DNA of 60,479 nt, taken from positions 1 to 60,479 of the forward strand of contig DVGV01000024.1 in the NCBI GenBank assembly GCA_018712545.1, given 5' to 3'. The notes under the pieces were generated by a model that worked only from the letters and a program-made list of their open reading frames with translations, was not told where the DNA came from and ran no database searches. The stretch is from Candidatus Coprenecus merdigallinarum (lineage in GTDB: Bacteria > Bacteroidota > Bacteroidia > Bacteroidales > UBA932). Position 1 is the first letter of the stretch; the number at the start of each line of letters is the position of its first letter. The position numbers and the translations under genes are program-made. This document shows positions 4,060-25,186 of the stretch, one piece after another.

Positions 4060-4095
4060 AATATTGTGATTTAGAAATTATTTCCTCCGTTCTGT

Positions 4096-4944: not shown

Positions 4945-6543
4945 CTATTTTTCATCAGCGAGGAGGGCATCCACATCGGCCTGGATGGGAGTGCCGGTAG
5001 CGTAGTCCCAGAGGGTGACGGAGCGGATATTGTAGTAGTAGTACCAGTAGTAGTAGAGCTGCTGGACGTAGTCCTGGCGGGCGAGGTCCTTGGCGTCGCG
5101 GGCGTCGTTGAGTTCGAGCACGCTCATGCGGCCGATGAGGAAGGACTCGACGGAGGCCTGGTAGCGGGCGGAGGCGACGCGGTCGGACTCACGGGCGAGG
5201 TCCAGCTGGCCGGCCTGGTTGTTGAACTGTTCGGTGAGCAGAAAGATGTTCTGGTTGAAATTGAGTTCCTCCTGCTGGAGCTGGGAGCGGACCACATCGC
5301 GGTTGCTCTCGGCCACTTTGACCTGCCCTTTGCGCTTGCCCCAGTCGAGAATCGGTATCGACAGGCCTATCGAGACGACCTCCTGGTCGCGGATGTCGTT
5401 GTAGGCCATGGCCAGCTCGCGGTTCACGCCGGAGTAGCCGACGGTCACGTTCAGGTCCACCTGGTAGCGCTGTCCCTTGGCCGTAGCCACACTGTAGTCG
5501 GCCTCGAGCTTGCGGCGCAGGATATTCTGGGCAAATGAGCTGTTGGCCAGGGCCTTGCCCAGAACATCATCGTAATCCAGAGCCGGCAGGGGAATGGCCT
5601 CGGGCAGCACGGCCTCGATGGTGTCCTGCTCGGAGAGGCCGAGGAAGGCCCGGAGGTTGAACATCGCTCCGTTCAGGCTGCTGCGCCGCGCGGTCACATC
5701 GGCCTTGGCCTGCAGGGCGGAAAGGCTCAGCTGCATCAGCTCGGTCTCGGAGATCTGGCCGATCTTGCGGCGTTCCTGGGCGATGGCATAGAGCTTGTCG
5801 GCGTTCTCGAGGTTCTGCTCGGCTATCTTCAGGTTCTCCGTCGCCAGGACATAGTCGAAGAAATACGCGATAGTGTTCATCTTGACCGTCTCCATATCCT
5901 CGGAGTAGGCCGCCCGGGACTCGGCATAGCGCACCGGCTCGATCTTCTTGTCCCAGCGGAAGGGATTGACCGAGAACAGGGGCTGGGTCAGGGTCAGGGC
6001 CACGGGGATGGACATGAACTCGTTGTAGGCATTAGCACCCAGCTGCCGCGTCATGTCCAGGCCGGTGCTCAGCGAGACCGTACCGCCGGTAAACGGAATG
6101 TTCTGGGTCACGGACAGCTCGCCGGTGAGTCCTAACCAGTTGCTGCGCACGTAGCTGTAGGTTCCGTCGGCATTCTGATAGGAATTGTAGTTGTTGTTGA
6201 ACGTGGGCAGCGTCCCGTTGAAAATCAGCTCCGGCAGCCGCTCCGCCTTGTAGGTCCGGAACTGCCAGTACGCGCTCTTGAGCTGGTTCAGCGCCACCGC
6301 CGCATCCACCGACTGCCCGCAGGCCAGGTCCATCGCGCCCTCGAGGGTCAGCTGCATCACGCCGCCCTGCTTCCCATCGGCCTGACCTATACCGGGCTCT
6401 TGCACCCCATCCGGTACATTTCCCATATCCGGCAGAACGCTCTCATCAGCATCCTGGGCTGCCAGCCCCTGCTGTCCTGACACTGCCGCCATCAGCAGCA
6501 CCGCCACCGTCATCATCACCTTTGTTTGAAAAATACGTTTCAT
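4945..6543 (-). CDS. TolC-family outer-membrane efflux protein of the ABC export locus
   Basis: TolC proteins trimerise into an outer-membrane channel with a long periplasmic helical barrel. From ATG 6543 the product has 532 residues with a signal peptide (MKRIFQTKVMMTVAVLLMAA). It then shows alternating helices and strands in two similar halves, including QLTLEGAMDLACGQSVDAAV near the start and SIGLSIPILDWGKRKGQV in the second half, both typical of the family. The frame extends upstream to 6579, but those residues precede a good signal peptide and overlap the inverted repeat, so 6543 is preferred. It is the last gene of the MacB-like array, 433 bases after permease B6, and is the likely exit duct for that array. 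A second TolC gene at 54798 serves the RND pump. Confidence 0.88.
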   Translation of the reverse strand: MKRIFQTKVMMTVAVLLMAAVSGQQGLAAQDADESVLPDMGNVPDGVQEPGIGQADGKQGGVMQLTLEGAMDLACGQSVDAAVALNQLKSAYWQFRTYKAERLPELIFNGTLPTFNNNYNSYQNADGTYSYVRSNWLGLTGELSVTQNIPFTGGTVSLSTGLDMTRQLGANAYNEFMSIPVALTLTQPLFSVNPFRWDKKIEPVRYAESRAAYSEDMETVKMNTIAYFFDYVLATENLKIAEQNLENADKLYAIAQERRKIGQISETELMQLSLSALQAKADVTARRSSLNGAMFNLRAFLGLSEQDTIEAVLPEAIPLPALDYDDVLGKALANSSFAQNILRRKLEADYSVATAKGQRYQVDLNVTVGYSGVNRELAMAYNDIRDQEVVSIGLSIPILDWGKRKGQVKVAESNRDVVRSQLQQEELNFNQNIFLLTEQFNNQAGQLDLARESDRVASARYQASVESFLIGRMSVLELNDARDAKDLARQDYVQQLYYYWYYYYNIRSVTLWDYATGTPIQADVDALLADEK

Positions 6544-6555
6544 TGTTTCTAAATT

Positions 6556-6742
6556 ATTGTCACTATACATTTTCGTCATATCCCAAATATCAATTTATCA
6601 AGCTCTTAGCATCTCCCCAAAATGCTAGATGCCCCATATTTTGCCCCAAAATGCTCATTTTCCCCTGTCCTAACATTTTCTCGATTCAATATCTTATTCA
6701 TTCTCAGCATATTGTCGCACACCTAAAATGTATAGTGACAAT
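6556..6742. repeat. 187-bp segment bounded by a perfect 18-bp inverted repeat
   Basis: ATTGTCACTATACATTTT at 6556-6573 and its exact complement AAAATGTATAGTGACAAT at 6725-6742 face each other across AT-rich DNA just upstream of tolC. Inside, CCCCAAAATGCT occurs twice (6615-6626 and 6644-6655). A related pair of arms lies at 25292-25369 upstream of the first permease gene. It may be a small non-autonomous element or a pair of regulator sites shared by both transcripts. Confidence 0.75.
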
Positions 6743-6756
6743 ATGTATGTTCCGTA

Positions 6757-6818
6757 TTTCCACAACGGCAGGAAAATGCCGGTTCCGCTGCCGTTGTGGC
6801 AAGAGGCGGAGGACCGGG
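6757..6818. repeat. REP-like hairpin repeat, copy 1
   Basis: Perfect 12-bp arms CCACAACGGCAG (6760-6771) and CTGCCGTTGTGG (6788-6799) enclose a loop that can itself fold (CGGCA/TGCCG). A tail ending GGCGGAGGACCGGGG follows. The same unit recurs at 6863-6924 and 12230-12291 with the arms always 28 bases apart. Confidence 0.85.
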
Positions 6819-6862
6819 GAGCCCAGGGAAGTGCCTCCCGCAGGGGTCGGCCAGTTCCGGGG

Positions 6863-6924
6863 CTTCCGCAACGGCAGGAAAATGCCGGTTTCGCTGCCGT
6901 TGTGGCAAGGAGCGGAGGACCAGG
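6863..6924. repeat. REP-like hairpin repeat, copy 2
   Basis: Arms CCGCAACGGCAG (6866-6877) and CTGCCGTTGTGG (6894-6905) differ from copy 1 by one base that still pairs as G-T in RNA. The tail GAGCGGAGGACCAGG follows, and a lone extra tail GGGCGGAGGACCGGGG sits at 6935-6950. Same orientation as copy 1, in the same B6-tolC gap. Confidence 0.85.
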
Positions 6925-6976
6925 GTGCCGCAAAGGGCGGAGGACCGGGGCAATATGGAACGGCGGCACTTCATGT

Positions 6977-8260
6977 TCATTCCTCCCGAAGGGCTTCTGA
7001 GGGCCGCATCCCCGAAACCTTCCATACGGAGACGAGCGCAGCCAGAATATTCATCAGGAACACAGCAGCCGCCACGACAGCAGTGACCATCAGTACGGAC
7101 AGCGGTCCCGAAGTCAGCACCGGCCATGGAGTCAGGGTCTCGGCTGCCGGATAGACACCGAAAAACTCCGCGCCTACGGTGGCCGACTCGCGTCCCAGCA
7201 CCAGATTGACATTGAGCACCAGAACGATTCCGATACCCACCGCTATAGCGGTAGACCTACAGGCCCGGCCCACTGCGCTGAGCCGCAGCCTCGCCGGAGT
7301 GGCGCCCATCGCCTGACGGACACCGTATTCGTCCTGATTCTTCCGCGAGTTCAGCAGCCAGAACGAGAAGGCTCCGAGCACGAGATTGAGGACGAGATAT
7401 ATCAGCCCGACATTGCGGAGGGAGACATCCATGCTGGCCTGCAGCTTGTTCTCCAAGGGCCATGCCGCTGCAGCCCTGAGATTGCCGAATGAGGCCTGCG
7501 ACGAGAGCACCCGGTTGAGCTCGGGAAGGAAGGAGTCCAAGTCGGTACCGTCAGCCACAAGAGCCACCCAGTAGGCACCGCTGGTGGACAGCTCGTCGTA
7601 GTTCACGGCTGCGATATTGGCTATCAGCACCGGGGTCGGGACACCCGTAATCTCGCGCAGCTTCTGGCGGGGAATCACGCCGACGACGACGTTGTTGCCG
7701 CTCTCGGTGGACTCAAATGACTTGCCTATAGGATTTTCCCCGGGAAACAGGAACTCAGCCAGGTCCTCGGAGACCACGACCCTGCCCACAGCATCCTCCG
7801 TCAGGAAAGGACTGCTGTCAGGCAGCACCCATTCGTAACCGAACACTTCCATGAAATCGGAGCCGGTCACCCGGTACAGCATACTGCACTCCATGAAATG
7901 GGTAGAATCCCGGAAAACCCTGCCATACATGTGATTGTCAATACCGGGGAAATACGGACGGCACGGCGCGGCATACTCCACCCCGCTGACCGAGGACAGG
8001 ACCTCCCCCATACGCCGGAAATCCTCCGTCATCCGTTCCCGCTCCATCGCCTCCGGGCGGTAATCGGGGTCGTAGTCCGGCAACACCTCCACCGGCACCA
8101 CCACGACATTCTCATAATCCCAGCCCATGGGAATGAACATACTGCGGTACAGCTTCATTATCTCAGGGTCGGCGAGGAACCAGCCCAGCACGAAGACCAA
8201 AACGGTCTCCACTATCAGCCACATTCCGCTTTTTATCTTCTTATGCGCTTTCATAACCAT
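6977..8260 (-). CDS. MacB/FtsX-type ABC permease, B-type (pair 6)
   Basis: This 427-residue inner-membrane protein has the MacB/LolCE layout: TM1 at about 14-32, a periplasmic domain to about 285, then three helices. The coupling motif is DEYGVRQAMGATPARLRL after TM2. The periplasmic part has the B-type signature VVVSEDLAEFLFPGENPIGK and VVGVIPRQKLREITG. The N-terminus (MVMKAHKKIKSGMWLIVETV) and the end MRPSEALREE match the B half of the fused permease at 9557, not the four other B proteins, so pairs 5 and 6 form one subfamily. It starts one base after the A6 stop (ATG 8254 is an alternative). It would pair with A6 and needs an ATPase encoded elsewhere, presumably at 12325. Confidence 0.85.
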   Translation of the reverse strand: MVMKAHKKIKSGMWLIVETVLVFVLGWFLADPEIMKLYRSMFIPMGWDYENVVVVPVEVLPDYDPDYRPEAMERERMTEDFRRMGEVLSSVSGVEYAAPCRPYFPGIDNHMYGRVFRDSTHFMECSMLYRVTGSDFMEVFGYEWVLPDSSPFLTEDAVGRVVVSEDLAEFLFPGENPIGKSFESTESGNNVVVGVIPRQKLREITGVPTPVLIANIAAVNYDELSTSGAYWVALVADGTDLDSFLPELNRVLSSQASFGNLRAAAAWPLENKLQASMDVSLRNVGLIYLVLNLVLGAFSFWLLNSRKNQDEYGVRQAMGATPARLRLSAVGRACRSTAIAVGIGIVLVLNVNLVLGRESATVGAEFFGVYPAAETLTPWPVLTSGPLSVLMVTAVVAAAVFLMNILAALVSVWKVSGMRPSEALREE

Positions 8261-8261
8261 G

Positions 8262-9554
8262 CTATTTTTTCTCGTTCAACGAATCCGTTACGCTGAACCT
8301 CAGCACCTTCCTCACCGGCAGATACGAGGACAGCAGATTGAGGGCCAGCACACAGACAAACACCAGAAGGTACAGTTCCGGACGGAAGAACACATCCGCA
8401 GGAAACACCAGGTCGGCCTGCATCTCCACGGCATCATACCCGGCCTTGCTCTGTTCCAGTGCATTGGACAGCAGGCCCAGAATTCCCCTGGCGAACACCA
8501 CGCCGAAAAGCCCCCCGATAAGCGTCAGCAGGAAATTCTCCGAAAGCACCTGCCGCACTATGACACCGTCTGGTGCCCCGTATGCCTTGCGCACCCCGAA
8601 CTCCACGATCCGTTCCTCCATGCTCGAAGCCACCATACCGCTCAGATTGACAGCAGGGACAATCATCAGCATCAGCACCATCGCCGTTATGATCGAAAGA
8701 AGCGTTCCCGCTGACACACCGGAAGTCCTGATATAAGTCTCCGGCCGCACATCCGGTGAGATATAGAACTCCTCAGCCGCACCGAACGAGAGATTGTACC
8801 TCGCCGTCACATCGCTTACCCCTGCCCGTACCGCATCAAAGTCCCTGCGGCTCTTGGCCAGAATATACAGATGGCCCGAGCCTAACCACGGCTGTCCGTC
8901 CGCACTGTAGAACCTCGTCCTGTACAGCTGGTACGGCAGCCACACCTCCGCATCTGTCATCATCGCCGTAAGAGGAACATCCCGCACCACCCCGCAGACC
9001 CTGAGCGGAGTACCGCCGTAGAGCACGCTCTGCCCCACCGCCGCGTCACCCGAACCGAAGCACCTGCGGGCAAATGTCTCGGAGACCACCGCCTCCACCA
9101 GCACCGGATTCCATTCCCCCGGAGCCTGCCCGTCCCGGAACTCAAACTGGAACACGTCCCAGAAACCTCCGTCCACATACATCACCGGAGCATTGTGGAC
9201 ATTGCCGTCGGGCGCGGTCAGACTGAGCGAACCGCTTCGGAAAGGCGCAATGACATACGACATGCTCTCCACGCCGGGGATATCCGCCTCTTCTATCAGC
9301 TGCGCCAGGCGCTCGCTCACCATGGTACCCATCCGCGGCTCGCCTTTCGCATCATCCAGAATAACATTGGAGAGAACCAGCATACGGCTGCGGTGCTTCT
9401 CCGGATAGATTCCCGAGACACTCATCAGCATGAACATCAGAAAGGCCATCACGAAGGCCATCGACAGCGCCACACCGATGATGTAGATCAGGCTGTACTG
9501 CCGGTCCTTGAGCATTATCTGCCAACTTTGGCGGAGGTATACAGGTAGTTTCAT
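8262..9554 (-). CDS. MacB/FtsX-type ABC permease, A-type (pair 6)
   Basis: This roughly 430-residue permease starts MKLPVYLRQSWQIMLKDRQ, with TM1 at about 20-42, a periplasmic domain to about 290, and three C-terminal helices. The TM2 end NLSGMVASSMEE leads into the coupling segment EFGVRKAYGAPDG. The periplasmic domain carries VVSETFARRCFGSGDAAVGQ and CGVVRDVPL. ATG 9560 overlaps the stop of the preceding gene as ATGA, but ATG 9554 matches the paralogue's start and has better spacing from the purine-rich AAGAGAAGA. Its first 33 residues equal those of the fused permease and the DNA there is nearly identical. Beyond that point the two proteins diverge quickly. Confidence 0.85.
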   Translation of the reverse strand: MKLPVYLRQSWQIMLKDRQYSLIYIIGVALSMAFVMAFLMFMLMSVSGIYPEKHRSRMLVLSNVILDDAKGEPRMGTMVSERLAQLIEEADIPGVESMSYVIAPFRSGSLSLTAPDGNVHNAPVMYVDGGFWDVFQFEFRDGQAPGEWNPVLVEAVVSETFARRCFGSGDAAVGQSVLYGGTPLRVCGVVRDVPLTAMMTDAEVWLPYQLYRTRFYSADGQPWLGSGHLYILAKSRRDFDAVRAGVSDVTARYNLSFGAAEEFYISPDVRPETYIRTSGVSAGTLLSIITAMVLMLMIVPAVNLSGMVASSMEERIVEFGVRKAYGAPDGVIVRQVLSENFLLTLIGGLFGVVFARGILGLLSNALEQSKAGYDAVEMQADLVFPADVFFRPELYLLVFVCVLALNLLSSYLPVRKVLRFSVTDSLNEKK

Positions 9555-9556
9555 AA

Positions 9557-12151
9557 TCATTCTTCTCTTAAAATTTCTGACGGGCGGGTCCGGGAGACTT
9601 TCCACACGGAGACGAGCGCCGCCAGGGCATTTACAACAAATATTACCGCAGCCACGGCCAATGTCACCATCAGCGCGGACAGGAAAGGCGAGGTCAGTAC
9701 CGGCCAGGGAGCCAGGGAACTCTCGGGCAACGCAGGCATATTGACCTGACCTATAAATACTACGTCTCGTCCTCGGAAGAGGATGATATTCAGCACCACA
9801 AACAGTCCGATACCGACCGACAGCGCAGCCTGTCCGAGACCCGCTGCCACTACATCGCGGCGCAGACGTCCCGGAGTCGAGCCCATGGCCGTGCGGACAC
9901 CGAACTCATCGGCCCTGCGGCGGGTTTGAAGGGCATAGTGCGAGAACGCCCCGAGTATCAAGTTCAGCAACAGGTACGAGAGCAGTATGGTCTCCAGTTC
10001 CCTGCCGCCGTAAGAATCCATTACTTCCGTCACCGGATAGGATAGTCCTACCCGAAGATTACCGAATGAAGTCCGGGAAGCCGTCCCGTAATTGATCTGC
10101 TCGATAAATTGGCGCATGTCCGTATCCTGCGACAGCCGCAGCACCCAGAAACACTGCCCTGAGCGGATGTAACCGGCCGGGTAGGAGGCCATATTGACAA
10201 TGACGACGGGCCGGGGATTGTCAGTCATAGTCCGGACCTTCTGCCGCTGAATCACCCCGGCCACCGTCCTCGGAGCAGCAGGAGACGAGTTGTTGGCAAG
10301 GTACAATGTCTGTCCAACCGGATCACTGCCGGGGAAAAGAGCCTCAGCCAGGTCCTCCGAAATAATCACAGTACCAGTTCCCTCATCGGCAGGGCGCACG
10401 CCTCCCTCCGGTACCAGCACGCGGAAACCGAAAACATCCATGAAATCACTGCCCAGCTCCTTGAGGAAACAGGCAGCCTGTATTTTGACAGAAGTATCCG
10501 CATAGACCGTCATGCGCGTCTCACTGTTGTTGCCGGGAATGAACGGTGACGTAGGTGTGAGTGCCTCCACCCCGTCCAAAGCAGCCAGCACCCGGCCAAT
10601 TCTTCGGAAATCCTCCAGCAGTACTCCGTCCTCCGAGGCCTCCGGACTGTATGCCGCATCCGAGGCGGAAAGAGAGGAGACCGGAACACAGACTACCCGG
10701 TCAGGATCCCAGCCGGCAGGTACGGCGTGACGGCGCACCCCGTTGAGCAGCATCGGGTCGGCAAGCAGCCAGCCGATGATGAATACCAAAGCGGCCTCTG
10801 TCACCAGCCAGGCATTCCGGACACGACGTGTCCTGTAATAGGAATTGTCCCTGAGCAGTTCCACCGCCCCCTTGCGCAGCACCTTCATCACCGGCTGCAC
10901 CGAAGCGAAAACAGTCAGCAAGGCCACCGCCGCAAACCCCATCAGGAAAAGACCCGGACGGAAAAATGACTCTGTCGGAAAGAGCAGGTCCGCATCATTG
11001 GAAAAATCGCCCATTACTGCAGAAACCTCCAGGAAATAGCCCGAGAGCATATTCAGCACTCCTATGGACAGGCCGAAGCCTATGACACCCCCTATAAGCG
11101 TCAGCATCAGGTTCTCCGCAAATATCTGCGAGAACATCGCCCGGAACGGAGCCCCGTAGGACTTCCGCGCCCCGAACTCCGTCAGCCTCTCCTGCAGGCT
11201 GGAAGAGACCATCCCGCACAGATTGACAGCCGGTATCAGCAGTATCACGACAATGGTTCCGATCACCAGGGACAGGACAAGCCCCGGAACTCCGCCAAGA
11301 AATGACACCCTGAAAGACAAGGGTTCTGTCTCATACGACATACTGAACTCACTGTCCTCCGACTGCATGGCATTGTAGCTGCCGACAGCTTTTTCCACCG
11401 CCTCCCGGATATCGGAGAAATGCCTGCGGCTCTGTGTCAGGAAGACTATATAGTTCCCGCCTTCCGGCATAGTGGCCCAATCCGCCAGAGTACGCATGCG
11501 CTCCTCCATATCCCTTGTCAGCCATATCTCCGCATCGGCAATACCGGCTGCAAGCGACACGTCCCGGACTACTCCGCAGACAGTCACAGCACGACCGTTT
11601 ACCGTAAGCATACGGCCCACGGCATCTTCATCCCCGAAGCACCTCTGCGCCATAGTAGCGGAGACGACCGCTGCCGGACCGGCCTCCCCTCCCTGACCAT
11701 ACTGTGTATCCTGACCGAAAGGTCTTCCCGCCAGAAAATCGAAATCGAAAACATCCCAGAATCCACCGTCCACATACCTCACATTGGCATAGAAAGCCGC
11801 CCTCTCCCCGGATGAGACCAGGACGTCCGCACAGATGGACGGAGGCCGGATCACCGACATAGCCTCAAGGCCCTCCGGCTCCACCTCCCGGATGAGGCGC
11901 ACCAGGTCATCCGGCACACTCGTAGTACCGAAATACTTGCCGTCTGCGTCATTATAATGCACGCCTGTTAGCAGCATAGTCCGTCCACGGTGATTCTCAG
12001 GGTAGACATTCCCCAGCATCATCACCATAAATATCAGCACAGACGAGACAAGTGCCATCGACAGCGCCACACCGATGATGTAGATCAGGCTGTACTGCCG
12101 GTCCTTGAGCATTATCTGCCAGCTCTGGCGTAGGTATACAGGTAGTTTCAT
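9557..12151 (-). CDS. Fused A+B MacB/FtsX-type ABC permease (pair 5)
   Basis: These 864 residues equal one A-type plus one B-type permease in a single chain, with eight predicted membrane helices. The A half (1 to about 430) has TM1 near 20-42, VVSATMAQRCFGDEDAVGR, CGVVRDVSLAA, and the coupling segment EFGARKSYGAPFR. A short linker (ELLRDNSYYRTRRVRN) leads into the B half, with TM at about 450-470, VIISEDLAEALFPGSDPVGQ, EFGVRTAMGSTPGRL and the end TRPSEILREE. Permeases of about 800 residues with two MacB/FtsX units are common in Bacteroidota; split ones beside a fused one in the same locus are notable. It follows the ATPase gene after 173 bases containing a hairpin repeat and overlaps A6 by ATGA. 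Confidence 0.88.
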   Translation of the reverse strand: MKLPVYLRQSWQIMLKDRQYSLIYIIGVALSMALVSSVLIFMVMMLGNVYPENHRGRTMLLTGVHYNDADGKYFGTTSVPDDLVRLIREVEPEGLEAMSVIRPPSICADVLVSSGERAAFYANVRYVDGGFWDVFDFDFLAGRPFGQDTQYGQGGEAGPAAVVSATMAQRCFGDEDAVGRMLTVNGRAVTVCGVVRDVSLAAGIADAEIWLTRDMEERMRTLADWATMPEGGNYIVFLTQSRRHFSDIREAVEKAVGSYNAMQSEDSEFSMSYETEPLSFRVSFLGGVPGLVLSLVIGTIVVILLIPAVNLCGMVSSSLQERLTEFGARKSYGAPFRAMFSQIFAENLMLTLIGGVIGFGLSIGVLNMLSGYFLEVSAVMGDFSNDADLLFPTESFFRPGLFLMGFAAVALLTVFASVQPVMKVLRKGAVELLRDNSYYRTRRVRNAWLVTEAALVFIIGWLLADPMLLNGVRRHAVPAGWDPDRVVCVPVSSLSASDAAYSPEASEDGVLLEDFRRIGRVLAALDGVEALTPTSPFIPGNNSETRMTVYADTSVKIQAACFLKELGSDFMDVFGFRVLVPEGGVRPADEGTGTVIISEDLAEALFPGSDPVGQTLYLANNSSPAAPRTVAGVIQRQKVRTMTDNPRPVVIVNMASYPAGYIRSGQCFWVLRLSQDTDMRQFIEQINYGTASRTSFGNLRVGLSYPVTEVMDSYGGRELETILLSYLLLNLILGAFSHYALQTRRRADEFGVRTAMGSTPGRLRRDVVAAGLGQAALSVGIGLFVVLNIILFRGRDVVFIGQVNMPALPESSLAPWPVLTSPFLSALMVTLAVAAVIFVVNALAALVSVWKVSRTRPSEILREE

Positions 12152-12229
12152 CTTTTTGGTTTTTCTGTTCTGTTCTGGTTATGGTTCAACGTTTCATTTT
12201 ACTCGGTTTTCGGGTCCTGGTGCCTGGCT

Positions 12230-12291
12230 TTTCCGCAACGGCAGGAAAATGCAGGTTTTGCTGCCGTTGTGGCAAGGGGCGGAGGACCGGG
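12230..12291. repeat. REP-like hairpin repeat, copy 3
   Basis: Arms CCGCAACGGCAG (12233-12244) and CTGCCGTTGTGG (12261-12272), then GGGGCGGAGGACCGGG. It has the same unit, orientation and arm spacing as the two copies beside tolC. It lies in the 173-base gap between the ATPase gene and the fused permease gene, where it may attenuate or process the transcript. Confidence 0.85.
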
Positions 12292-12324
12292 CAGGTCGGG
12301 CAGGCAGAGGCAGGCCTCAGGTCC

Positions 12325-12990
12325 CTACCCGATGATGCGGCCGTCGAGCATACGGATGATGCGGTCGGTCTGCTTGGCCTGGGACTCGTTGTGGGTCACC
12401 ATCAGGATGGTCTTGCCGCGCTGTTTGTTGACCTCGTGCAGGAGCTCCATGACTTCGGCACCCATCTTGGAGTCCAGGTTACCGGTGGGCTCGTCCGCTA
12501 AGATGATGGATGGATCGCCGACTAAGGCGCGGGCGATGGCCACCCTCTGGCACTGACCGCCGGAAAGCTGCGAGGGGAAATGCTTCACCCTGTGGCTCAG
12601 GCCCACGGCCTCGATCATCTTGAGGGCACGTTCCTTACGCTCGGTCGCACCCATCCTGCGGTACAGCAGGGGCATCTGCACGTTGTCCAGGACATTGAGC
12701 GAGGGGATCAGGTGGAAGCTCTGGAAGACAAATCCGAGCTCGGTGTTGCGGAAGCGGGCGGCCTCCCTGGCATTGAGGCCCGAGACGGGCTTGCCGTGCA
12801 GCTCCACGGTACCGGAAGAGGGCTCGTCGAGCAGTCCGGCGATGTTGAGCAGGGTGGACTTGCCGCAGCCGGAGGGGCCCATGATACTTACAAATTCTCC
12901 TTCGCGCACTTCGAGGTTGATGTTGTCGAGAGCCATGGTCTCGATCTCGGAGGTTCTGTAGATTTTGGAAATTTCGATAAGCTTGATCAT
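12325..12990 (-). CDS. MacB/LolD-type ABC transporter ATPase
   Basis: This 221-residue cytoplasmic ATPase powers FtsX-type permeases. It has Walker A GPSGCGKSTLL near residue 40, Q-loop VFQSFHLIP, signature LSGGQCQRVAIARAL (the second Gln of the usual LSGGQQQ is Cys), Walker B IILADEPTGNLDS and H-switch VTHNE. The family name follows from these and from the absence of a fused permease. It is the only ATPase in the 20-kb array, which has six permease pairs, so it probably serves several or all of them. It starts 46 bases after the B4 stop. Confidence 0.92.
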   Translation of the reverse strand: MIKLIEISKIYRTSEIETMALDNINLEVREGEFVSIMGPSGCGKSTLLNIAGLLDEPSSGTVELHGKPVSGLNAREAARFRNTELGFVFQSFHLIPSLNVLDNVQMPLLYRRMGATERKERALKMIEAVGLSHRVKHFPSQLSGGQCQRVAIARALVGDPSIILADEPTGNLDSKMGAEVMELLHEVNKQRGKTILMVTHNESQAKQTDRIIRMLDGRIIG

Positions 12991-13036
12991 AATTCTTAAA
13001 TTTTATTTGTTTATAAATATTTTCAAAAGGTTAAAA

Positions 13037-14332: not shown

Positions 14333-14339
14333 ATCGGAT

Positions 14340-15656: not shown

Positions 15657-15674
15657 ATATTGTACTTCTAAATA

Positions 15675-16973: not shown

Positions 16974-16979
16974 AGCGGA

Positions 16980-18296
16980 TTATCTTTGAGAGTTCAACGA
17001 TTCGGTGATGGGACGGCGGATAACCTTGGATGCGGGCACAAGGGCCGAAAGCAGGTTGACCACCAGCACAAGCGCCAGCAGCAGAAGATACAGGCTGACT
17101 TTGAAGAAGCTCCGGAAGGTAAATGCAGGAGCTGGGATAAATTCGAAAAATCCGAATTCGACCATGGAGTTCAGCGGCAGCAGGTCGTACAGCTGGTCCT
17201 GCAGCAGGTACAGAAAAAGGTAGGACAGCAGCAGGCCGACCGCTCCCCCGATAAGGGTCAGCAGCAGATTCTCCCCGACGATCTGCCGGACTATCGCTCC
17301 GCGCCAGGCTCCGAACGACTTGCGGACTCCGAACTCGGCCATGCGGGCCTCCATTCCGGAGCCGGTCATCCCCGAGAGATTGAACACCGGAACGAGGAGC
17401 ACCAGCAGCACCACTCCCACTCCTATCCAGGTATAGGCCGCGGCACTGTCATACATGAATATCCTCTCCCTCACCGTCGGCATACCGTACGCCAGGGAGA
17501 GTTTCCATGAGGAGACACCGGACTGATTGTACCTGTCTATCCGCTCCTGCATCTCCGAGCGGATGGCGGAGAAGTCCCGACGACTGCCGGCCAGCAGCTC
17601 TATCTCGTATGGGCCGATCATGACATTATTGTCATTAGCCATGGCCCACTCCCTCAACTGCACATCCATCAGCGTAGGCTCAGTGTCGGGAACCCATATC
17701 TGTGCGAATGCGTAAGTGGCCGTCTGGGGTACGTCCCTCACCACTCCGCATATACGGTACTCCTTGTTATTGAAGAAGATGCTCTCTCCCACCACGTCCT
17801 TGCGTCCGAGCAGAGCGGCTGCCGCGGACTCGGCCATCAGCACATCGGGCACATTGCGCAGCGCTCCGTCTGCGGTAATCGGCCCGCCGTAAAGCACCTC
17901 CAGCGGAAATATATCCGTAAAACTGCTGTCGATGAACTCCACTACCATCTTCAGGGGCTCACCCGCAGAGTTATAGACCTTGAATTCCTCCGTTTTCACG
18001 GCTGTCCACGCCTCCACTCCCGGCAGCGGCTCGGACAGGAACTGAGCGATGAAATCCTTGCTCACAGACTGTTCCATTGAGCTAGTCGTACCGAGTTCCA
18101 GATAGATCAGCGGTATCGAGAGCATCCGGTCCCGGTGCGTCTCTGGATAGCTGTTCTGAGTGCGCATGGCCACCACAGTGAGGTAGGTCATGACCATTGC
18201 CAGCGAGAAGGCCACGGCGATGATGTAGACCAGCGTGTAGAGCTTGTCCGAGCGGATGTTGTGCCACGACTCCCTGAAATATACTCCCAGCTTCAT
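16980..18296 (-). CDS. MacB/FtsX-type ABC permease, A-type (pair 3)
   Basis: A 438-residue permease beginning MKLGVYFRESWHNIRSDKLY, with TM1 at about 20-42. It has LMAESAAAALLGRKDVVGE, CGVVRDVPQTATYAFAQIW, the coupling segment AEFGVRKSFGAWRGAIV and the end RRPITESLNSQR. Its start is only 3 bases after the adaptor stop, so translation is probably coupled to the adaptor. Confidence 0.85.
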   Translation of the reverse strand: MKLGVYFRESWHNIRSDKLYTLVYIIAVAFSLAMVMTYLTVVAMRTQNSYPETHRDRMLSIPLIYLELGTTSSMEQSVSKDFIAQFLSEPLPGVEAWTAVKTEEFKVYNSAGEPLKMVVEFIDSSFTDIFPLEVLYGGPITADGALRNVPDVLMAESAAAALLGRKDVVGESIFFNNKEYRICGVVRDVPQTATYAFAQIWVPDTEPTLMDVQLREWAMANDNNVMIGPYEIELLAGSRRDFSAIRSEMQERIDRYNQSGVSSWKLSLAYGMPTVRERIFMYDSAAAYTWIGVGVVLLVLLVPVFNLSGMTGSGMEARMAEFGVRKSFGAWRGAIVRQIVGENLLLTLIGGAVGLLLSYLFLYLLQDQLYDLLPLNSMVEFGFFEFIPAPAFTFRSFFKVSLYLLLLALVLVVNLLSALVPASKVIRRPITESLNSQR

Positions 18297-18299
18297 AAC

Positions 18300-19559
18300 T
18301 TATCTCTTTTTAGAGGGTTTGATCTTCAGCTCAGGCTGCTTGGCGTAGTCCTGCATGTCGGAGATGACCACCTGTTCGCCGGGCTCGATGCCGGAGATAA
18401 CCTCCACGTAGTCGTAGTTGGCCTCGCCGAGGGCCACGCGGCGGCGCACCAGGCGGTCGCCCTCGCGGACGAAGAGGTCGTAGTTGCCCTCACCTTTATA
18501 ATATGTGCCGGAGGGCAGGCGGAGGACATTCTCGCGGTAGGCGTAGACCACGTAGATGTCGCATTTCAGGCCCGAGCGCAGGCCCGGGGCAGACTCGTCG
18601 TCAAGCTGTACGGTAAAGGATATCAGGCCGTCGGTGGACATCGGGGAGAGTACCGACACCATGCCGGTGAGGGTGTCCCGTCCGGCCAGCACTGTAGTCC
18701 GGTAGCCCTCGGCTATCTTGCCGGCCTGCATGTCGCCCAGCTCGCCCTCCACCTTGAAACGGGTGAGGTCGGCCAGCATCGCCAGCTTCTCGCCCTGCCC
18801 CACCTGGGCGCCTATCTCGCTGTTGATGAATGTGAGGGTCGCAGCGTAGGGAGCGCGGACACCCGCGTCATAGAGACGGCGGCGGGTCTGCTCCTTGTTC
18901 TTGCGGAAGATCGAGAGCTCCAGCTCGGCCACGGCCTCATCGGCGGCGGCCAGGTCCCGCTGGTTCTGGAGCTTGCGGCGGTTGTCCTCCAGCTTGAGGC
19001 TCGACACCGTGTAGTCCAGCTCAGCCTCGCGCACCTTGTCCGGAGTACCCGCTCCGAGCGAGTCCAGATACTTCTCGTTGCGCAGGGCGGCGGCCTTGCG
19101 GTCCAGCTCCATCTCCTGAATGTCGATATTCATCTCCATCTCCGTTATATTGTTGCGGTTGGTAATCCGCAGTTTTTCCAGCTGCAGCTCCTTCATCCGC
19201 TCCTCGTCCAGCATATTGTCATACTCGGTCTGTACTGCCGCGAGATCCAGGCGAAGCAGGGGCTCACCCGCCTGCACCACCTCTCCGGCCCGTTTATAGA
19301 CCTCCACTACACGGGAGGAAATAGGGGAGTTGATGACCTCCTCGTAGCCCGGCACCACCTTTCCGGTAGCCGATACCGCAAACTCTATAGAACCGGTATC
19401 CACCGTAGCCAGCCGCAGGCTGTTTTCCCGCACCGAAGGCTGGATCAACACTGCCAGCAGCACCACCGCCACTACCGCCGCTCCTGTTCCGAGGCCCCAG
19501 CGGATGATGACCTTGCGGCGGTCCTGCCATTTTTCCTTGTTCGTCAATTCTCTATCCAT
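18300..19559 (-). CDS. HlyD/MacA-like periplasmic adaptor protein
   Basis: This membrane-anchored adaptor bridges ABC permeases and TolC. From ATG 19559 it has 419 residues: a cytoplasmic start (MDRELTNKEKWQDRRKVIIR), one TM at about 20-40, a first lipoyl half-motif around GKVVPGYEEVINSPISSRV, a helical hairpin at about 105-220, and a second lipoyl half near GVRAPYAATLTFINSEIGAQ. A beta-barrel region and a membrane-proximal domain ending in KIKPSKKR follow. The frame extends two codons upstream to a TTG at 19565, which is less likely. It is the only adaptor in the array, placed between pairs 2 and 3. Confidence 0.9.
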   Translation of the reverse strand: MDRELTNKEKWQDRRKVIIRWGLGTGAAVVAVVLLAVLIQPSVRENSLRLATVDTGSIEFAVSATGKVVPGYEEVINSPISSRVVEVYKRAGEVVQAGEPLLRLDLAAVQTEYDNMLDEERMKELQLEKLRITNRNNITEMEMNIDIQEMELDRKAAALRNEKYLDSLGAGTPDKVREAELDYTVSSLKLEDNRRKLQNQRDLAAADEAVAELELSIFRKNKEQTRRRLYDAGVRAPYAATLTFINSEIGAQVGQGEKLAMLADLTRFKVEGELGDMQAGKIAEGYRTTVLAGRDTLTGMVSVLSPMSTDGLISFTVQLDDESAPGLRSGLKCDIYVVYAYRENVLRLPSGTYYKGEGNYDLFVREGDRLVRRRVALGEANYDYVEVISGIEPGEQVVISDMQDYAKQPELKIKPSKKR

Positions 19560-19592
19560 ATTCAAATCACTTGTTTATTATCTCTAAAAAAT

Positions 19593-20918
19593 CTATTCGT
19601 CCCTAAGACCTTCGACGGGAAGCTGGCGCAGTGCCAGCAGCACCGGCACAGCAACTGCCACCGTCACCATTACGAAGAGCAGTCCCAGGACAATACCCTC
19701 CACCATCAGAAAATGCAGTACCGGGTCAAATAACAGCGGATACAGTTCTCTGGTCACCGGCAGCATGAACAGGTCTGTCTCCCCTACGATATTCATCTTT
19801 CCCATCACAATAATATTGATCACCACCACACAGGCAATAAGGGCAGCCGCTGCGGTCACGGCCCATATCTCTCCGATGTTCTGAGCGAGGATCCTCCATC
19901 CGGAGCCTCCCATCGCCCGGCGGACGCTGATCTCCCCGCGCCGTTCTTCCATCCTCAGCCAGCTGATGGACACTACCGCCAGAAGTACATTGATGATGAG
20001 GAATATCCTGAGGGCTTTCCAAAGGAACAGCCGGTCCATGCTGCCGGACAGTATCCTGTCCTCCACCATCTCCCTGTAAGACACTACCTCCCTCACTCTG
20101 TAATTGCCCAGGCCTCCGCCGCTCTCAAGTTTCCGGCCCAACTCTGCCGCAAACTCCTCCGCATCCACCCCCGGCACAGTCCGGAAAGCGTATTTGTACT
20201 CTTCACTAAAGACAATATCCTCAAAGTACTCCAGCTTACTGGTATTGTCTATCAACATCGGAATATTCTCAGCATCCGGGCTCATACGGACATTGGCGAT
20301 GACTCCGGTTATCTTCCGGTTATCATAATCCGAAGTGTAACCCGGTCTGGAGTCATCCAGTGCATCTCCTAGAGTCTTTCCCAGCGGGTTTTCCCCATGG
20401 AACAGCGTCATCGCCAGGTCTTCAGAAATAATAAAGGTATTCGGTTCATCCACCAGTTCTCCGCTCTCAGGCTGCAGCAGCCTGAATCCGAGCAGCCGGA
20501 AATCCTCCGCCCCGGAAATTCTACGCATCACAGCCGTATTTACACTTGTAACGCTATCCACCAATATTGTCATCAGATTCTTGCTGCCAAGGCACGGCGT
20601 CATATTGATCGGGGCCTGACTCTGTATCTGGGGCATCTGACGCAGCATGTCACCTACCCGGAAAAAGTTCTCCATACGGGCCTCGTCCGTATCGTAGGTG
20701 CTGTCGTAGCCATACTGGCCCGGATACAGTTCTTCTAGAGAAAGCACGTACACCCCGTCATAGTCTATGCCGTCGGGTATGGCGTGAATCCTGTACTGGA
20801 CATTCCATATCCGGTTGACTACAAACCACGACACGACAGCGATCACAAGAAGCTCCGCAAACAGCCAGGCACTGCCCCGGCGGTAAAACCATATCTGCTT
20901 GAATATCTGCCTTATCAT
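19593..20918 (-). CDS. MacB/FtsX-type ABC permease, B-type (pair 2)
   Basis: A 441-residue permease opening MIRQIFKQIWFYRRGSAWLF, with TM1 at about 18-36. The signature is FIISEDLAMTLFHGENPLGK, where His replaces the usual Pro in FPGENP. The coupling segment is GEISVRRAMGGSGWRIL, with Ser for Gly in EIGVRR. It ends ALRQLPVEGLRDE. It starts 6 bases after the A2 stop and is followed by the adaptor. Confidence 0.85.
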   Translation of the reverse strand: MIRQIFKQIWFYRRGSAWLFAELLVIAVVSWFVVNRIWNVQYRIHAIPDGIDYDGVYVLSLEELYPGQYGYDSTYDTDEARMENFFRVGDMLRQMPQIQSQAPINMTPCLGSKNLMTILVDSVTSVNTAVMRRISGAEDFRLLGFRLLQPESGELVDEPNTFIISEDLAMTLFHGENPLGKTLGDALDDSRPGYTSDYDNRKITGVIANVRMSPDAENIPMLIDNTSKLEYFEDIVFSEEYKYAFRTVPGVDAEEFAAELGRKLESGGGLGNYRVREVVSYREMVEDRILSGSMDRLFLWKALRIFLIINVLLAVVSISWLRMEERRGEISVRRAMGGSGWRILAQNIGEIWAVTAAAALIACVVVINIIVMGKMNIVGETDLFMLPVTRELYPLLFDPVLHFLMVEGIVLGLLFVMVTVAVAVPVLLALRQLPVEGLRDE

Positions 20919-20924
20919 AGTACG

Positions 20925-22262
20925 CTATTTTTTATAGTTCAACGATTCGGTTATCGGATGCCGGATGACTCTGCGGGCAGGAAGTAGGGCCGACAGTACA
21001 TTGAGCACCACTATGATAAGAAGCAGTGCAGTCCCCAGGTATATGTTGTAGAAATCTCTGAAATCAAAATACCCGGCCTCAGGAGTCCCGTAGCCCGGCA
21101 TCCATTCGCCGGTCGGAACCAACATGCTGAGCTGACGGGAGAACACCTCCAGCAGCAGCCATGACAGCACCAGCCCCAGCACTCCGCCGATAAGTGTCAG
21201 CAGCAGATTCTCCCAGGTTATCTGCGAGAGGATGGAACCACCACAGGCACCGAAGGCCTTACGGGTACCGAACTCGGTCAGACGTGCCTCCATCCTGGAA
21301 GTCACCATGCCGGAGAGATTGAAAAGCGGCACCAGCAGGATAAGCAGGAGCACTCCGACACTCATCCAAATATAGGGCGTAATAGGCTGACTGTTGCCAT
21401 GAATATCAAACTGCGCGAACACACTTTCCACATACGACGGTACTCCCCGGGGCAGGCTCAGTTCCGTTCCGCTGTCATCGGTATGGTTGAATATCTCCAG
21501 GCGGTCCTCAATCCCCGACCTGATTTTACGGAACGAGGCCCTGTCGTCAGCCAGAATATATATGAATCCGTCCCCCAGAAAACTGCTCTTGCCGGAGAAC
21601 ATCCGTCCGAGCCACGACATGTTGATGTCGTACTCCTCCAAAGGCATCCAAGCCTCGGCAAAAGCCGCAGACGCGCTTATGGGCACATCCCTGACCACTC
21701 CGCATATCCGGAACAACTGGCCGTCCCAGTACACCTCCTTACCCACCGCATCCGACTTTCCGGCAAGACGGCGTGCTATCGATTCGGAGACCACCAGCTC
21801 GGCTGCACTGCCGTGCATACCGCTTTCCGACAAAGGTCTGCCCGCGATAAACTGAAAATCAAAGACCCTCCAGAAGTTCCGGTCCACGAAACGGGTAAAT
21901 GCCTTGCAGCTTATACCGGCGGCATCCCTCAATGTGAGCGGACCTTCCATAAAACTCTTAGGAGCCGTTGCTGTCCAGCACTCCACTCCGGGCAGACTGT
22001 CCAGGAAACGCTTTCCGAACTCAGCCGACACTCCGAAGCCCAGCGTTCCCATATCTCCCTTATATAACAGATAGCTGACACTCAGCATCCTGTCCCGGTG
22101 CGTCTCCGGCACGGTATTGACCACCCTGGAAGAAAGCACGGTCAGGAAAGCCATCACCAGTGCGACCGACACCGCCGTTCCGGCGATGAACACCGCGCTG
22201 TACACCCGGTTCACCCGGAGGTTGTACCATGCCTGCTTGAAATATAAACCTACTTTCATCAT
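20925..22262 (-). CDS. MacB/FtsX-type ABC permease, A-type (pair 2)
   Basis: A 445-residue permease opening MMKVGLYFKQAWYNLRVNRV (ATG 22262, with a second ATG at 22259). It shows VVSESIARRLAGKSDAVGKE, CGVVRDVPISASAAFAEAW, the coupling segment TEFGTRKAFGACGGSIL and the end RHPITESLNYKK. Its first 30 codons are almost the same DNA as A1, including a tract of about 55 identical bases within 22191-22260, while the periplasmic domain is very different. Confidence 0.85.
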   Translation of the reverse strand: MMKVGLYFKQAWYNLRVNRVYSAVFIAGTAVSVALVMAFLTVLSSRVVNTVPETHRDRMLSVSYLLYKGDMGTLGFGVSAEFGKRFLDSLPGVECWTATAPKSFMEGPLTLRDAAGISCKAFTRFVDRNFWRVFDFQFIAGRPLSESGMHGSAAELVVSESIARRLAGKSDAVGKEVYWDGQLFRICGVVRDVPISASAAFAEAWMPLEEYDINMSWLGRMFSGKSSFLGDGFIYILADDRASFRKIRSGIEDRLEIFNHTDDSGTELSLPRGVPSYVESVFAQFDIHGNSQPITPYIWMSVGVLLLILLVPLFNLSGMVTSRMEARLTEFGTRKAFGACGGSILSQITWENLLLTLIGGVLGLVLSWLLLEVFSRQLSMLVPTGEWMPGYGTPEAGYFDFRDFYNIYLGTALLLIIVVLNVLSALLPARRVIRHPITESLNYKK

Positions 22263-22279
22263 GTACAGTTTTATCGTTA

Positions 22280-23584
22280 TTATTCATCTCTAAGGGCCTC
22301 GACCGGGGGAAGGCGGAGCGCTCCGGCAGCGGGGATGAGGATGGCCGCAGTCACTGCCAGGAGCAGGAGGCCGAGGACAATGCCCTCCACCGCGAGGAAG
22401 TGCGTCACGGGATCGAAGAGCAGGGGGAAGTCAGCGGCATTGAGGGGCATCATGCCGTGCTGATTATCCGGAGCCACGATATTTATTTTGCCTATGAGGA
22501 TGATGTTGACCGTTATCAGAATACCGATGACGGCGGCCGCAGCGAAGGTCACCCAGACCTCCTGCATATAGTGCAGCAGGATGCGGCGGGGCGAGCCTCC
22601 CATGGCCCTGCGGACTCCGATCTCCCCGCGTCTCTCCTCCATCCGGAGCCACCCTGTAGAGGCCACAGCCAGCAGAACATTGACTATCATGAACAACCAG
22701 AGGGCCTTCCAGATAAAGAGCTTGTCCAGCACCTCGATTCTGACCACAGAGTCCACCCTGTCCTCGAAGGAGTACACGTCCTGTACGCGGTAGTTGCCGA
22801 ACTGCAGAGTCTTCCTCCATTCCCTGGAAGCCTTCTCGAGGAAGCGGTCTCCGTCCACACCGGGCTTGAGGCGGAAAGCGTACATCTGGTCTCCGCCGTT
22901 GTCACCCACCATGTCAGCGACATTCTGTAACACGTACGGTATGTCATCCGAGTACCCGGCACCGCGCATACTGCCTATCACTCCGGCTATGGGTTCAGTA
23001 TAATTCATATTAGTCAATTTCTCCGAGTCGCTGAGTGTCCTGCCCACAGGATTCTGCCCCGGGAAGAGGTAATCGGCCATATCCTTGGTGATGATGATAG
23101 AGCCGGGTGTATCCTCCATCTGTCCGTCCGCAGGGTAGATCAGTCCGTACCTTAACACCTCAAAATCATCTGAGCCGGACTCCCGCTCAAAGGTCGTGAA
23201 CATCATCGTAGTCACACTGTCAATGTTGACCATCGCCATGGAATGTACGCCGTCTCCGGGATGGCCTGTGCTTATGGGCGAGGCGCACAATACTTCCGGC
23301 ATAGCTCTGAGAGCGTCCCCGAAACGGCGGAGATTCTCCCTCTGCGCCTTCAGGGAAGCAGCCTCAGGGTCATATCCGTTGCGGTCGGATGTCAAGTCCG
23401 TGAGATACACACAGTACACTCCCTCAGGGTCATATCCGTCCGGGACGTTCCCGATACGGTATGTGGAAGTCCACGTCTCGTTGACGATGAACCAGGAGAC
23501 TGCGATGATGACCACCAGTTCGATGAACAGCCAGGCATTGCTCCTGCGGTAGAACCACAGCTGTTTGAATATCTGTCTAAGCAT
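22280..23584 (-). CDS. MacB/FtsX-type ABC permease, B-type (pair 1)
   Basis: A 434-residue permease opening MLRQIFKQLWFYRRSNAWLF. It has the B signature IIITKDMADYLFPGQNPVGR, the coupling segment GEIGVRRAMGGSPRRIL and the end LRLPPVEALRDE. It starts 6 bases after the A1 stop, matching the spacing seen in pairs 2 and 3. Confidence 0.85.
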   Translation of the reverse strand: MLRQIFKQLWFYRRSNAWLFIELVVIIAVSWFIVNETWTSTYRIGNVPDGYDPEGVYCVYLTDLTSDRNGYDPEAASLKAQRENLRRFGDALRAMPEVLCASPISTGHPGDGVHSMAMVNIDSVTTMMFTTFERESGSDDFEVLRYGLIYPADGQMEDTPGSIIITKDMADYLFPGQNPVGRTLSDSEKLTNMNYTEPIAGVIGSMRGAGYSDDIPYVLQNVADMVGDNGGDQMYAFRLKPGVDGDRFLEKASREWRKTLQFGNYRVQDVYSFEDRVDSVVRIEVLDKLFIWKALWLFMIVNVLLAVASTGWLRMEERRGEIGVRRAMGGSPRRILLHYMQEVWVTFAAAAVIGILITVNIILIGKINIVAPDNQHGMMPLNAADFPLLFDPVTHFLAVEGIVLGLLLLAVTAAILIPAAGALRLPPVEALRDE

Positions 23585-23590
23585 ATCTTG

Positions 23591-24901
23591 TCATTTTTTA
23601 CAGTTCAACGATTCAGTGATGGGACGGCGGATGACCTTGACTGCCGGGATGACTGCCGATATCATGTTGAGTACGGCCAGGATTACCAGCAGGACGGCGT
23701 ACAGCCCGATATTGAAGAAGTCCCGGAAGTCGAAGAAGCCGCCGGACTCAGGCACCTTGTAGGTGTAGGACTCCACCAGTACGCTGCCCGGCACCATGGC
23801 GTTCATCTGCTGCGAGAACAGCACGATGATCAGCCATGCCACCAGCAGACCTACGACTCCGCCCATCAGGGTCATCAGCAGATTCTCCCCGGCTATCTGT
23901 GCGAGAATAGAGCGAGGTCCGGCTCCGAAAGACTTGCGGGTGCCGAACTCGGTCAGGCGGGCCTCCATTCTGGAATTGACCATGCCCGAAAGGTTAAGCA
24001 GCGGCACCAGCAGGATCAGCAGCACCACTCCCGCTCCCAGCCATGCGTATGCAGAGGAACCTAAGTCGCTCCCCGAGAAGATGTACTGGCGCTGCGAGTC
24101 TATGCCGCTGACGGTCATCTTATATTCGGATTTCTCGATATTGTTGTACTGTTCCACGCGGTCCAGCACAGCCTGTTTTACTGCCGGAATATCCTTGCCG
24201 TCCCTGAGCAGCACTATTATCTCATTGCCGTTCATATACTTTGCCAAAGCACTGGATTCAGGGCCCAGGGTTTTATCTCCTATCGTAGACGGCAGCCATA
24301 TCTCGGAAAAAGCCAGCGTCGCGCTCATCGGTACGTCCCTGACCACTCCGCAGACAGTCAGCGTATATCCGTCCATGTACACCTTCTCTCCCACAGCGTC
24401 TGCCCGTCCTGTCAGGGAGCGGGCCAGTGACTCGGTCACCACTGCCTCGGGCATATTGAGGTCCATACCGCTCTCCGATATCGGCCTGCCGTACAGGAAG
24501 TCCAGACTGAATATCTTCCAGAAATTCCTGTCCACCATCCGGGCGTATGCGTAGGAGACCTCATCCGACGTATTTTCCAAAGCAGCGAACGTATTGTAAT
24601 ACGTATAGACAGCCGACCAGCACTCCACTTCCGGCATGTCCTTGAGGAAATCTCTGGCGAACCGGTAATTGGGAGCCGCGCCGAACATTATGGTCTCGCT
24701 TCGCAGCTCGATTCTGGAAATCACCATCGTCCTGTCCCTGTGCATCTCCGGCACTGTATTCACCACCCTGGCCGACAGCACCGTCAGGAACGCCATCACC
24801 AGAGCCAGCGAAAGAGCCGTTCCGGCGATGAACACCGCGCTGTACACCCGGTTCACCCGGAGGTTGTACCACGCCTGCCTGAAGTATAATCCTAATTTCA
24901 T
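23591..24901 (-). CDS. MacB/FtsX-type ABC permease, A-type (pair 1), first gene of the array
   Basis: A 436-residue permease opening MKLGLYFRQAWYNLRVNRVY, with TM1 at about 20-44. The periplasmic domain spans about 45-285 with VVTESLARSLTGRADAVGEK and CGVVRDVPMSATLAFSEIW. TM2 ends NLSGMVNSRMEA, followed by the coupling segment TEFGTRKSFGAGPRSIL and the end RRPITESLNCKK. It is the first gene of the transcript, about 135 bases downstream of the likely start from the sigma-54-like promoter at 25046-25061. Confidence 0.87.
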   Translation of the reverse strand: MKLGLYFRQAWYNLRVNRVYSAVFIAGTALSLALVMAFLTVLSARVVNTVPEMHRDRTMVISRIELRSETIMFGAAPNYRFARDFLKDMPEVECWSAVYTYYNTFAALENTSDEVSYAYARMVDRNFWKIFSLDFLYGRPISESGMDLNMPEAVVTESLARSLTGRADAVGEKVYMDGYTLTVCGVVRDVPMSATLAFSEIWLPSTIGDKTLGPESSALAKYMNGNEIIVLLRDGKDIPAVKQAVLDRVEQYNNIEKSEYKMTVSGIDSQRQYIFSGSDLGSSAYAWLGAGVVLLILLVPLLNLSGMVNSRMEARLTEFGTRKSFGAGPRSILAQIAGENLLMTLMGGVVGLLVAWLIIVLFSQQMNAMVPGSVLVESYTYKVPESGGFFDFRDFFNIGLYAVLLVILAVLNMISAVIPAVKVIRRPITESLNCKK

Positions 24902-25045
24902 ATCTGCTGTGTTTTTCTATTTTCGTTAATTTCTTCTCTTTGGGCCTTGTGCTGTCCGCTCACGTCGCCCGTTCCATCGTCCGTTCCCATGCACTTTCAT
25001 GATCACTCTCCATTCAGCGGACACTTTTCTCCCCGAACAGCCCGT

Positions 25046-25104: not shown

Positions 25105-25139
25105 GTGTCCGATATCGGACACCTGTCCGTTTTCGGACA
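25105..25139. promoter_or_regulatory. Candidate enhancer sites: two TGTCCG palindromes
   Basis: GTGTCCGATATCGGACAC (25105-25122) is a perfect 18-bp palindrome. TGTCCGTTTTCGGACA (25124-25139) is a near-identical second site 18 bases away centre to centre. Half sites CGGACAC follow at 25148-25154 and 25018-25024. Paired dyads about 50-75 bases upstream of a -24 element are typical of sigma-54 activator sites. The protein that binds is not in the window. Confidence 0.65.
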
Positions 25140-25186
25140 CCCTCGGGCGGACACTTTCATTATGACCGTACACTTTCCCTTCTACC

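Follow-up and report, generated by a model that had tools for sequence, protein, structure and literature searches.

The 60,479-base contig DVGV01000024.1 of Candidatus Coprenecus merdigallinarum (contig C88 of a 2.2 Mb genome in 88 contigs; this whole stretch is hereafter the window) carries on its minus strand a cluster of 14 genes encoding six pairs of MacB-like permeases, one ATPase, one periplasmic adaptor and one TolC-type outer membrane channel. We consider it probable, at roughly 60%, that this cluster represents a MacB/VarDEF-like family of type VII ATP-binding cassette (ABC) exporters in which a shared backbone serves exchangeable cassettes, each made of two permease types that we call A and B. 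The components come from known families; the multi-pair, cassette-exchanging array appears to be new, and it is widespread in Bacteroidales. No published description of multi-pair arrays was found at the level of titles and abstracts, which is weak evidence of absence, subscription journals being poorly covered.

From 24,901 down to 4,945 the genes run A1-B1-A2-B2-adaptor-A3-B3-A4-B4-ATPase-A5B5-A6-B6-channel, where A5B5 is a single fused gene and each pair position is a slot: A1 (23591..24901) and B1 (22280..23584) in slot 1, A2 (20925..22262) and B2 (19593..20918) in slot 2, A3 (16980..18296) and B3 (15675..16973) in slot 3, A4 (14340..15656) and B4 (13037..14332) in slot 4, the 864-residue A5B5 (9557..12151, joined near residue 435) in slot 5, and A6 (8262..9554) and B6 (6977..8260) in slot 6. 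The MacA/HlyD-type adaptor, a membrane fusion protein with a TTG start that matches HlyD_3 and RND_mfp, lies at 18300..19565, the ATPase (ABC_tran) at 12325..12990 and the channel, an outer membrane factor matching OEP and TolC family models, at 4945..6579. The original prediction, made from the letters of the window alone, had placed and oriented all 14 genes in this order, and only the start of A6 needed correction: its open frame as listed (8262-9605, GTG start) overlaps the end of A5B5, and homology puts the start (MKLPVY) at 9554. The predicted A-to-B spacing of 1-7 bases was likewise recovered, at 6, 6, 6 and 7 bases in pairs 1-4, a fusion in pair 5 and 1 base in pair 6, and the reading frames of all 12 permease halves are open in the window.

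Both permease types belong to one structural class. The Pfam cut-off for FtsX is exceeded by each of the 10 unfused A and B proteins and by the A portion of A5B5. MacB_PCD scores above its cut-off in all A proteins and in two stretches of A5B5 (the second at 45.6 bits); among the separate B proteins it is below cut-off in B2, B3 and B4 and unreported for B1 and B6. Solved MacB chains are the best Protein Data Bank (PDB) sequence matches for A and B profiles alike, and the B profiles further match LolF, LolC and LolE chains. The four-helix MacB/LolCE layout that had been predicted for every subunit agrees with a hydropathy scan, which detects four or more hydrophobic segments per half in all 12 halves, and with an AlphaFold2 model of B1 (mean predicted local distance difference test score, pLDDT, 86.5) that places the periplasmic domain between transmembrane helices TM1 and TM2 and a coupling helix between TM2 and TM3, followed by TM4. 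The best Foldseek match of this model is MacB (5gko; E 4.8e-15, TM-score 0.58 by query), and structure prediction thus supports a MacB-like fold for the B subunit. Within the window the A proteins are 30-51% identical among themselves and the B proteins 26-46%. A supposedly fixed ATPase-contact motif, E-[FI]-G-x-R-[RK]-x-x-G, is matched strictly by 9 of the 12 halves, the exceptions being B2 (EISVRR), B5 (EFGVRT) and B6 (EYGVRQ), so that its constancy had been overstated. A joint alignment of A and B rows was uninformative, as the B rows fell onto the A half.

The array ATPase has complete Walker A, signature (LSGGQ), Walker B and H-loop motifs. Together with the four-helix permeases, their extracytoplasmic domain between TM1 and TM2 and their coupling helices, this places the cluster in the MacB/FtsX (type VII) family, and at gene level in the MacAB-TolC type, an adaptor and an outer membrane factor being encoded with the transporter. 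It fits none of the narrower models. ATPase and permease are on separate genes and score far below the cut-off for MacB proper (PRK10535 equivalog); the LolCDE equivalogs (TIGR02211, TIGR02212) are not reached (ATPase 257.3 of 307.75 bits, B1 19.2 of 362.45 bits), nor is the ADOP model TIGR03434 by A5B5 (183.4 bits against a cut-off of 622.3). The ATPase scores 257.5 bits with the DarD model and 257.3 bits with the LolD model, both below the respective cut-offs.

The same layout recurs in relatives, which excludes a chance origin. Among 19 genomes of the genus (our own and G001-G018), 16 have a match to the adaptor at E <1e-50, the exceptions being G001, G004 and G008; the named sequences closest to it come from Candidatus Coprenecus genomes and from uncultured Bacteroidales of this type (L109-L121, L-numbers denoting loci in named genomes; 82-99% identity). 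Pair number varies: six in our genome, four in G007 and G018, three each in G003, G009, G011 and G017, two in G012 and one in G010. Where contig ends cut the locus there are at least five pairs in G002 (on two contigs), at least four in G005, at least three in G013 and at least two in G006, with partial loci in G014, G015 and G016. By contrast, no second adaptor or second ATPase occurs in the stretches examined of any genus locus. At E <1e-90 the array ATPase finds a single match in each of 13 of the 19 genomes (95-100% identity in 11 other genomes, 79% in G010), and no other gene of the array is as conserved in the genus; of the six genomes without a match, three are those lacking the adaptor match, and in G005, G014 and G016 the array contigs end before the ATPase position.

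The chromosomal site is also shared. Wherever the flanks fall within the stretch, a hemW-like gene (25898..27517 in the window, minus strand) lies on the slot 1 side and the pyrH-like (amino acid kinase) and frr genes (3496..4821, minus strand) on the channel side, both being visible in G003, G007 and G009 and one side in several others; neither was seen in the stretch around the G010 locus. The HemW-like protein itself has 539 residues with long Ser/Ala/Gly-rich inserts, and homologous frames vary in length among relatives.

Slots were assigned by hand from trees of 52 A rows and 50 B rows (sequences shorter than 300 residues excluded; A1 of G005 is cut by a contig end), and the two trees yield identical slot groups, with slots 5-6 forming a clade separate from slots 1-4. 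Distinct slots, 26-51% identical to one another, are kept across species. Within slots, the identity of A tracks that of B (r = 0.976, from 165 comparisons that are not independent). Relative to the adaptor (164 non-independent comparisons), slot identity is more than 5 points higher in 34, more than 12 points lower in 80 and between these in 50. The adaptor alone was rejected as a baseline for exchange, being itself divergent between two species groups, and exchange was judged instead from gene-by-gene DNA identity profiles of the surrounding window, in which background identity across eight genomes is 64-72% for the M16 gene and 71-76% for the TPR-U32 genes.

Against this background, some cassettes are 91-98% identical in DNA between species that share 64-76% identity in the M16/U32 genes of the same stretch, and in other relatives the alternative cassettes of one slot are only about 60-73% identical. 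Slots 5-6 match G018 at 96.7% over 6970-12151, from the end of B6 to the A5 start codon, with 87% on either side; the M16 and TPR-U32 genes of G018, on the same contig as its array, are only 66-73% identical in DNA. G017 and G012 show the same high-identity pattern at slots 5-6. Slot 1 matches G011 at 96.5% over 22281-24927, the adaptor stretch being 82% in that alignment, and M16/TPR-U32 genes of G011 have 64-71% identity versus 96-97% for slot 1. In G005, identity is 94-97% across slots 1-3 and the adaptor but 73% in slot 4 (windows 54-84%), while G011 has our slot 4 version at 94%. Some junctions fall inside genes: in slot 4 of G003 the end of B4 is 94-98% identical and its periplasmic part 55-63%. 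At protein level, identity to G018 is 61% for M16, 69% for U32 and 73% for DAHP synthase; to G005 the corresponding values are 73, 78 and 91%. Because array and M16/U32 genes share one contig in five genomes (G018, G011, G012, G009 and G007), mis-binning is disfavoured, and chimaeric assembly would have to recur to produce these patterns. At sequence level these comparisons show A/B pairs changing together and moving between species as units.

Identity is also raised elsewhere in the window, which indicates that exchange reaches beyond the array. The neighbouring genes are not uniformly low (pyrH-frr 85-95%, up310 75-90%, hemW 71-90%), and where G005 and G002 cover the stretch 31956-36400, which includes a TonB-dependent-receptor-like gene, they match it at 93-98%, beside an M16 gene at 66-71%. 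We take this stretch to be a second exchange island.

Divergence between alternative cassettes of one slot is unevenly distributed, as estimated from cassette region comparisons of the window with G005, G003 and G002. In four comparisons of A proteins (A4 with G005 and G003, A3 with G002, A1 with G003) identity is 41-60% in the periplasmic domains and 81-93% in the coupling region; for B proteins the corresponding ranges are 45-59% and 67-91%. The window's own paralogues within one clade follow the same direction, with 32-44% in periplasmic domains and 44-65% in coupling regions. The periplasmic divergence that had been proposed from the window alone thus holds both between alternative cassettes and among paralogues.

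Comparable arrays exist outside the genus, in Parabacteroides (among them those at L129 of Parabacteroides distasonis), Tannerella, Bacteroides and Mediterranea. We compared the best 80 of 331 confirmed loci in named genomes, 14 of Coprenecus type and 66 from other Bacteroidales. At least two pairs are present in 53 of the 80; the gene after an A is a B in 162 of 165 cases (A lies next to A in the remaining three), in keeping with the two-subunit code of the original prediction, and fused homologues resembling A5B5 occur in four loci. The single energy source and single adaptor per array were also supported: on the strand of the adaptor, none of the 80 loci encodes a further adaptor or ATPase within the stretch examined; 15 have no ATPase there, some being cut by contig ends, and in L151 the ATPase is on the opposite strand. 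An ATPase of the same group as ours sits inside arrays of other genera. Sixteen arrays of other genera, followed further, contain 3 to 7 pairs. The largest belong to uncultured Bacteroides: L174 has seven pairs (one A in two frames, the last B cut), and L168 has six plus an additional A where the contig ends. Six pairs are therefore neither unique nor maximal, and we rejected that idea. A DUF2807 (head GIN domain) protein is encoded near or inside arrays in 11 of the 66 other Bacteroidales loci (for example L167, 17872-18546).

That only one ATPase and one adaptor are present is true of the cluster and does not extend to the genome, which has other MacB/LolD-class ATPases and adaptors. Dedicated ATPases for individual pairs, which the original prediction had named as evidence that would count against it, were looked for among the four nearest of these, on contigs C8, C67, C16 and C74 (55, 53, 46 and 42% identical to the array ATPase). 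By position none serves a single array pair or adjoins a pair of array type: the C8 ATPase is found with fused-length permeases and its own adaptor, the C16 ATPase adjoins its own 407-residue permease, and the C67 ATPase has no permease among the listed neighbours. This positional evidence does not prove partnership. MacB_PCD has 17 further matches outside the array contig, including ten frames of 778-798 residues, frames of this length lying on contigs C8, C10, C24, C49, C59, C61, C67, C77 and C86. Because MacB/LolD-class ATPases are few in the genome, many permeases are without an adjacent ATPase.

The closest experimentally tested system is VarACDEF of Vibrio cholerae, in which the permeases VarD and VarE and the ATPase VarF form a tripartite pump that works with TolC in E. 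coli (PMC5595328). It shares with the array two separate MacB-like four-helix permeases, one separate ATPase, an adaptor and an outer membrane channel; it differs in having one pair, and no array or cassette exchange is described in that part of the source (PMC5595328). E. coli MacAB-TolC likewise has the MacB periplasmic core and FtsX domains, a MacA-type adaptor and a TolC-type channel, but MacB is described as a homodimer with its own ATPase domain (PMC5985334, PMC8277102), whereas the array has a separate ATPase and two subunit types. LolCDE resembles the array in its heterodimeric LolC/LolE permease on a separate ATPase dimer (PMC8277102) and differs in having one pair without adaptor or TolC-type channel. 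A5B5 is reminiscent of the fused double permeases of the ADOP/YbbP kind, but lies below the ADOP cut-off, and the array mixes fused and split pairs with ATPase, adaptor and channel.

By analogy with VarACDEF and with the MacB family as reviewed (PMC5985334, PMC8277102), we infer that each A/B pair would form an A:B heterodimer docked on a homodimer of the common ATPase, take its substrate on the periplasmic side and pass it through the common adaptor to the TolC-type channel. With every pair using the same adaptor and channel, the six pairs would be six alternative pumps differing in substrate; peptides, siderophores, envelope-active compounds or lipoproteins are possible candidates. Homologous recombination at one fixed place in the chromosome would have duplicated pairs, removed them and moved them from species to species, and change, falling mostly in the periplasmic domains, would alter the expelled compounds and leave the engine unaltered. 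The modular part of the modular exporter first proposed for this locus is strengthened by the comparison with relatives, through the one backbone, the joint change of A and B and the exchange of cassettes.

Several observations weigh against this exporter reading. The model of fused A5B5 is poor (mean pLDDT 56.3, most of the B half below 50) and gives no support for A:B packing; the contrast between domains is weaker in B proteins (B4 against G005: coupling 67%, periplasmic 59%); no tested region has a ratio of nonsynonymous to synonymous substitution rates (dN/dS) above 1 (range 0 to 0.86, mostly 0.04-0.4, many synonymous sites being near saturation); and slots 5-6 lie between gaps of 173 and 397 bases, so that the genes may not be one transcript. 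Because dN/dS is below 1 in every region tested, the coding regions demonstrate constraint on the cassette proteins without sign of diversifying selection. The lack of ratios above 1 would also suit an improbable alternative in which the pairs are neutral or dosage paralogues of overlapping function at a recombination hot spot on repeated genes, as would the exchange at 31956-36400, outside the array, and the hairpin repeats bordering slots 5-6. However, all 12 halves remain open under constrained protein change, A and B change together, and slots as distant as 26-51% identity persist across species.

An unlikely but more serious competitor grants the pairs a common ATPase but would make only some of them tripartite exporters, the others acting within the envelope like LolCDE, in lipoprotein release, or like YbbAP. 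It draws on the near-equal DarD and LolD scores of the ATPase, on the matches of B profiles to LolF, LolC and LolE chains and on the separate clade of slots 5-6; yet MacB remains the best match of both profiles and of the B1 fold, and adaptor and channel genes are present in array loci long enough to show them. A sensing role, in which BceAB-like pairs detect envelope-targeting compounds and signal rather than export in bulk, seems very improbable. Of the 66 other Bacteroidales loci, 10 have a sigma-54 response regulator close to the array and 7 a histidine kinase, but neither regulator family was found among the scanned neighbours of the Coprenecus array, an adaptor and TolC-type channel are unlike BceAB, and array subunits have four transmembrane helices versus ten reported for BceB (PMC5985334). 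We give least credence of all to pairs powered by ATPases encoded elsewhere, such as that on C67 with no permease among its listed neighbours: the motifs of the array ATPase are complete, no array gene in the genus is more conserved, and its group recurs inside the arrays of other genera.

A scan of the cluster found no consensus Bacteroidota promoter; terminator-like sites number 13 versus 12.2 expected, and sigma-70-like sites 27 versus 10.1 expected, the latter not trusted for this phylum. A repeat scan found a hairpin repeat between the ATPase and slot 5 (12230..12276, minus strand) and two more copies in the gap between slot 6 and the channel gene (6757-6823 and 6864-6929, minus strand). 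Under a strict pattern these are the only three copies in the genome, all bordering slots 5-6, on both sides; a relaxed pattern finds five places, one of them on C77 near another MacB-type permease. In the relatives L078 (11109-11290) and L082 (8450-8630), reading by eye shows another element between ATPase and slot 5, some 120 bases long and bounded by inverted repeats. Short palindromic repeat clusters lie between hemW and A1 (25106-25141, 25180-25248 and 25673-25807). A bacteriocin operon, or one for ribosomally synthesized and post-translationally modified peptides, was considered and rejected: small open reading frames (at least 20 residues) upstream of A1 include no clear precursor by eye, and the neighbouring radical SAM protein is HemW-like.

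Sharing one energising unit among several specificity subunits has reported precedents in group II energy-coupling factor (ECF) transporters (PMC7755397) and in MsmK (PMC4519317), but these are importers of unrelated fold, whereas the array belongs with the type VII exporters and includes an adaptor and an outer membrane channel. We tentatively suggest, as an idea we hold somewhat short of even odds, that gut Bacteroidales recombine A/B pairs and periplasmic pieces from a cross-species pool and so remodel the specificity of export or resistance, an efflux counterpart of the group II ECF importers. If the exporter reading is true, these arrays would constitute a large class of exporters in gut Bacteroidales, as yet without a name, that separates engine from specificity, and would explain why MacB-type permeases are so numerous in these genomes and matching ATPases so few. 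The natural cassettes, which differ mainly in the periplasmic domains and sit on a near-invariant ATPase, would make the periplasmic choice of substrate by MacB-type transporters testable, and their exchange between co-resident species points to substrates relevant for competition or survival in the gut.

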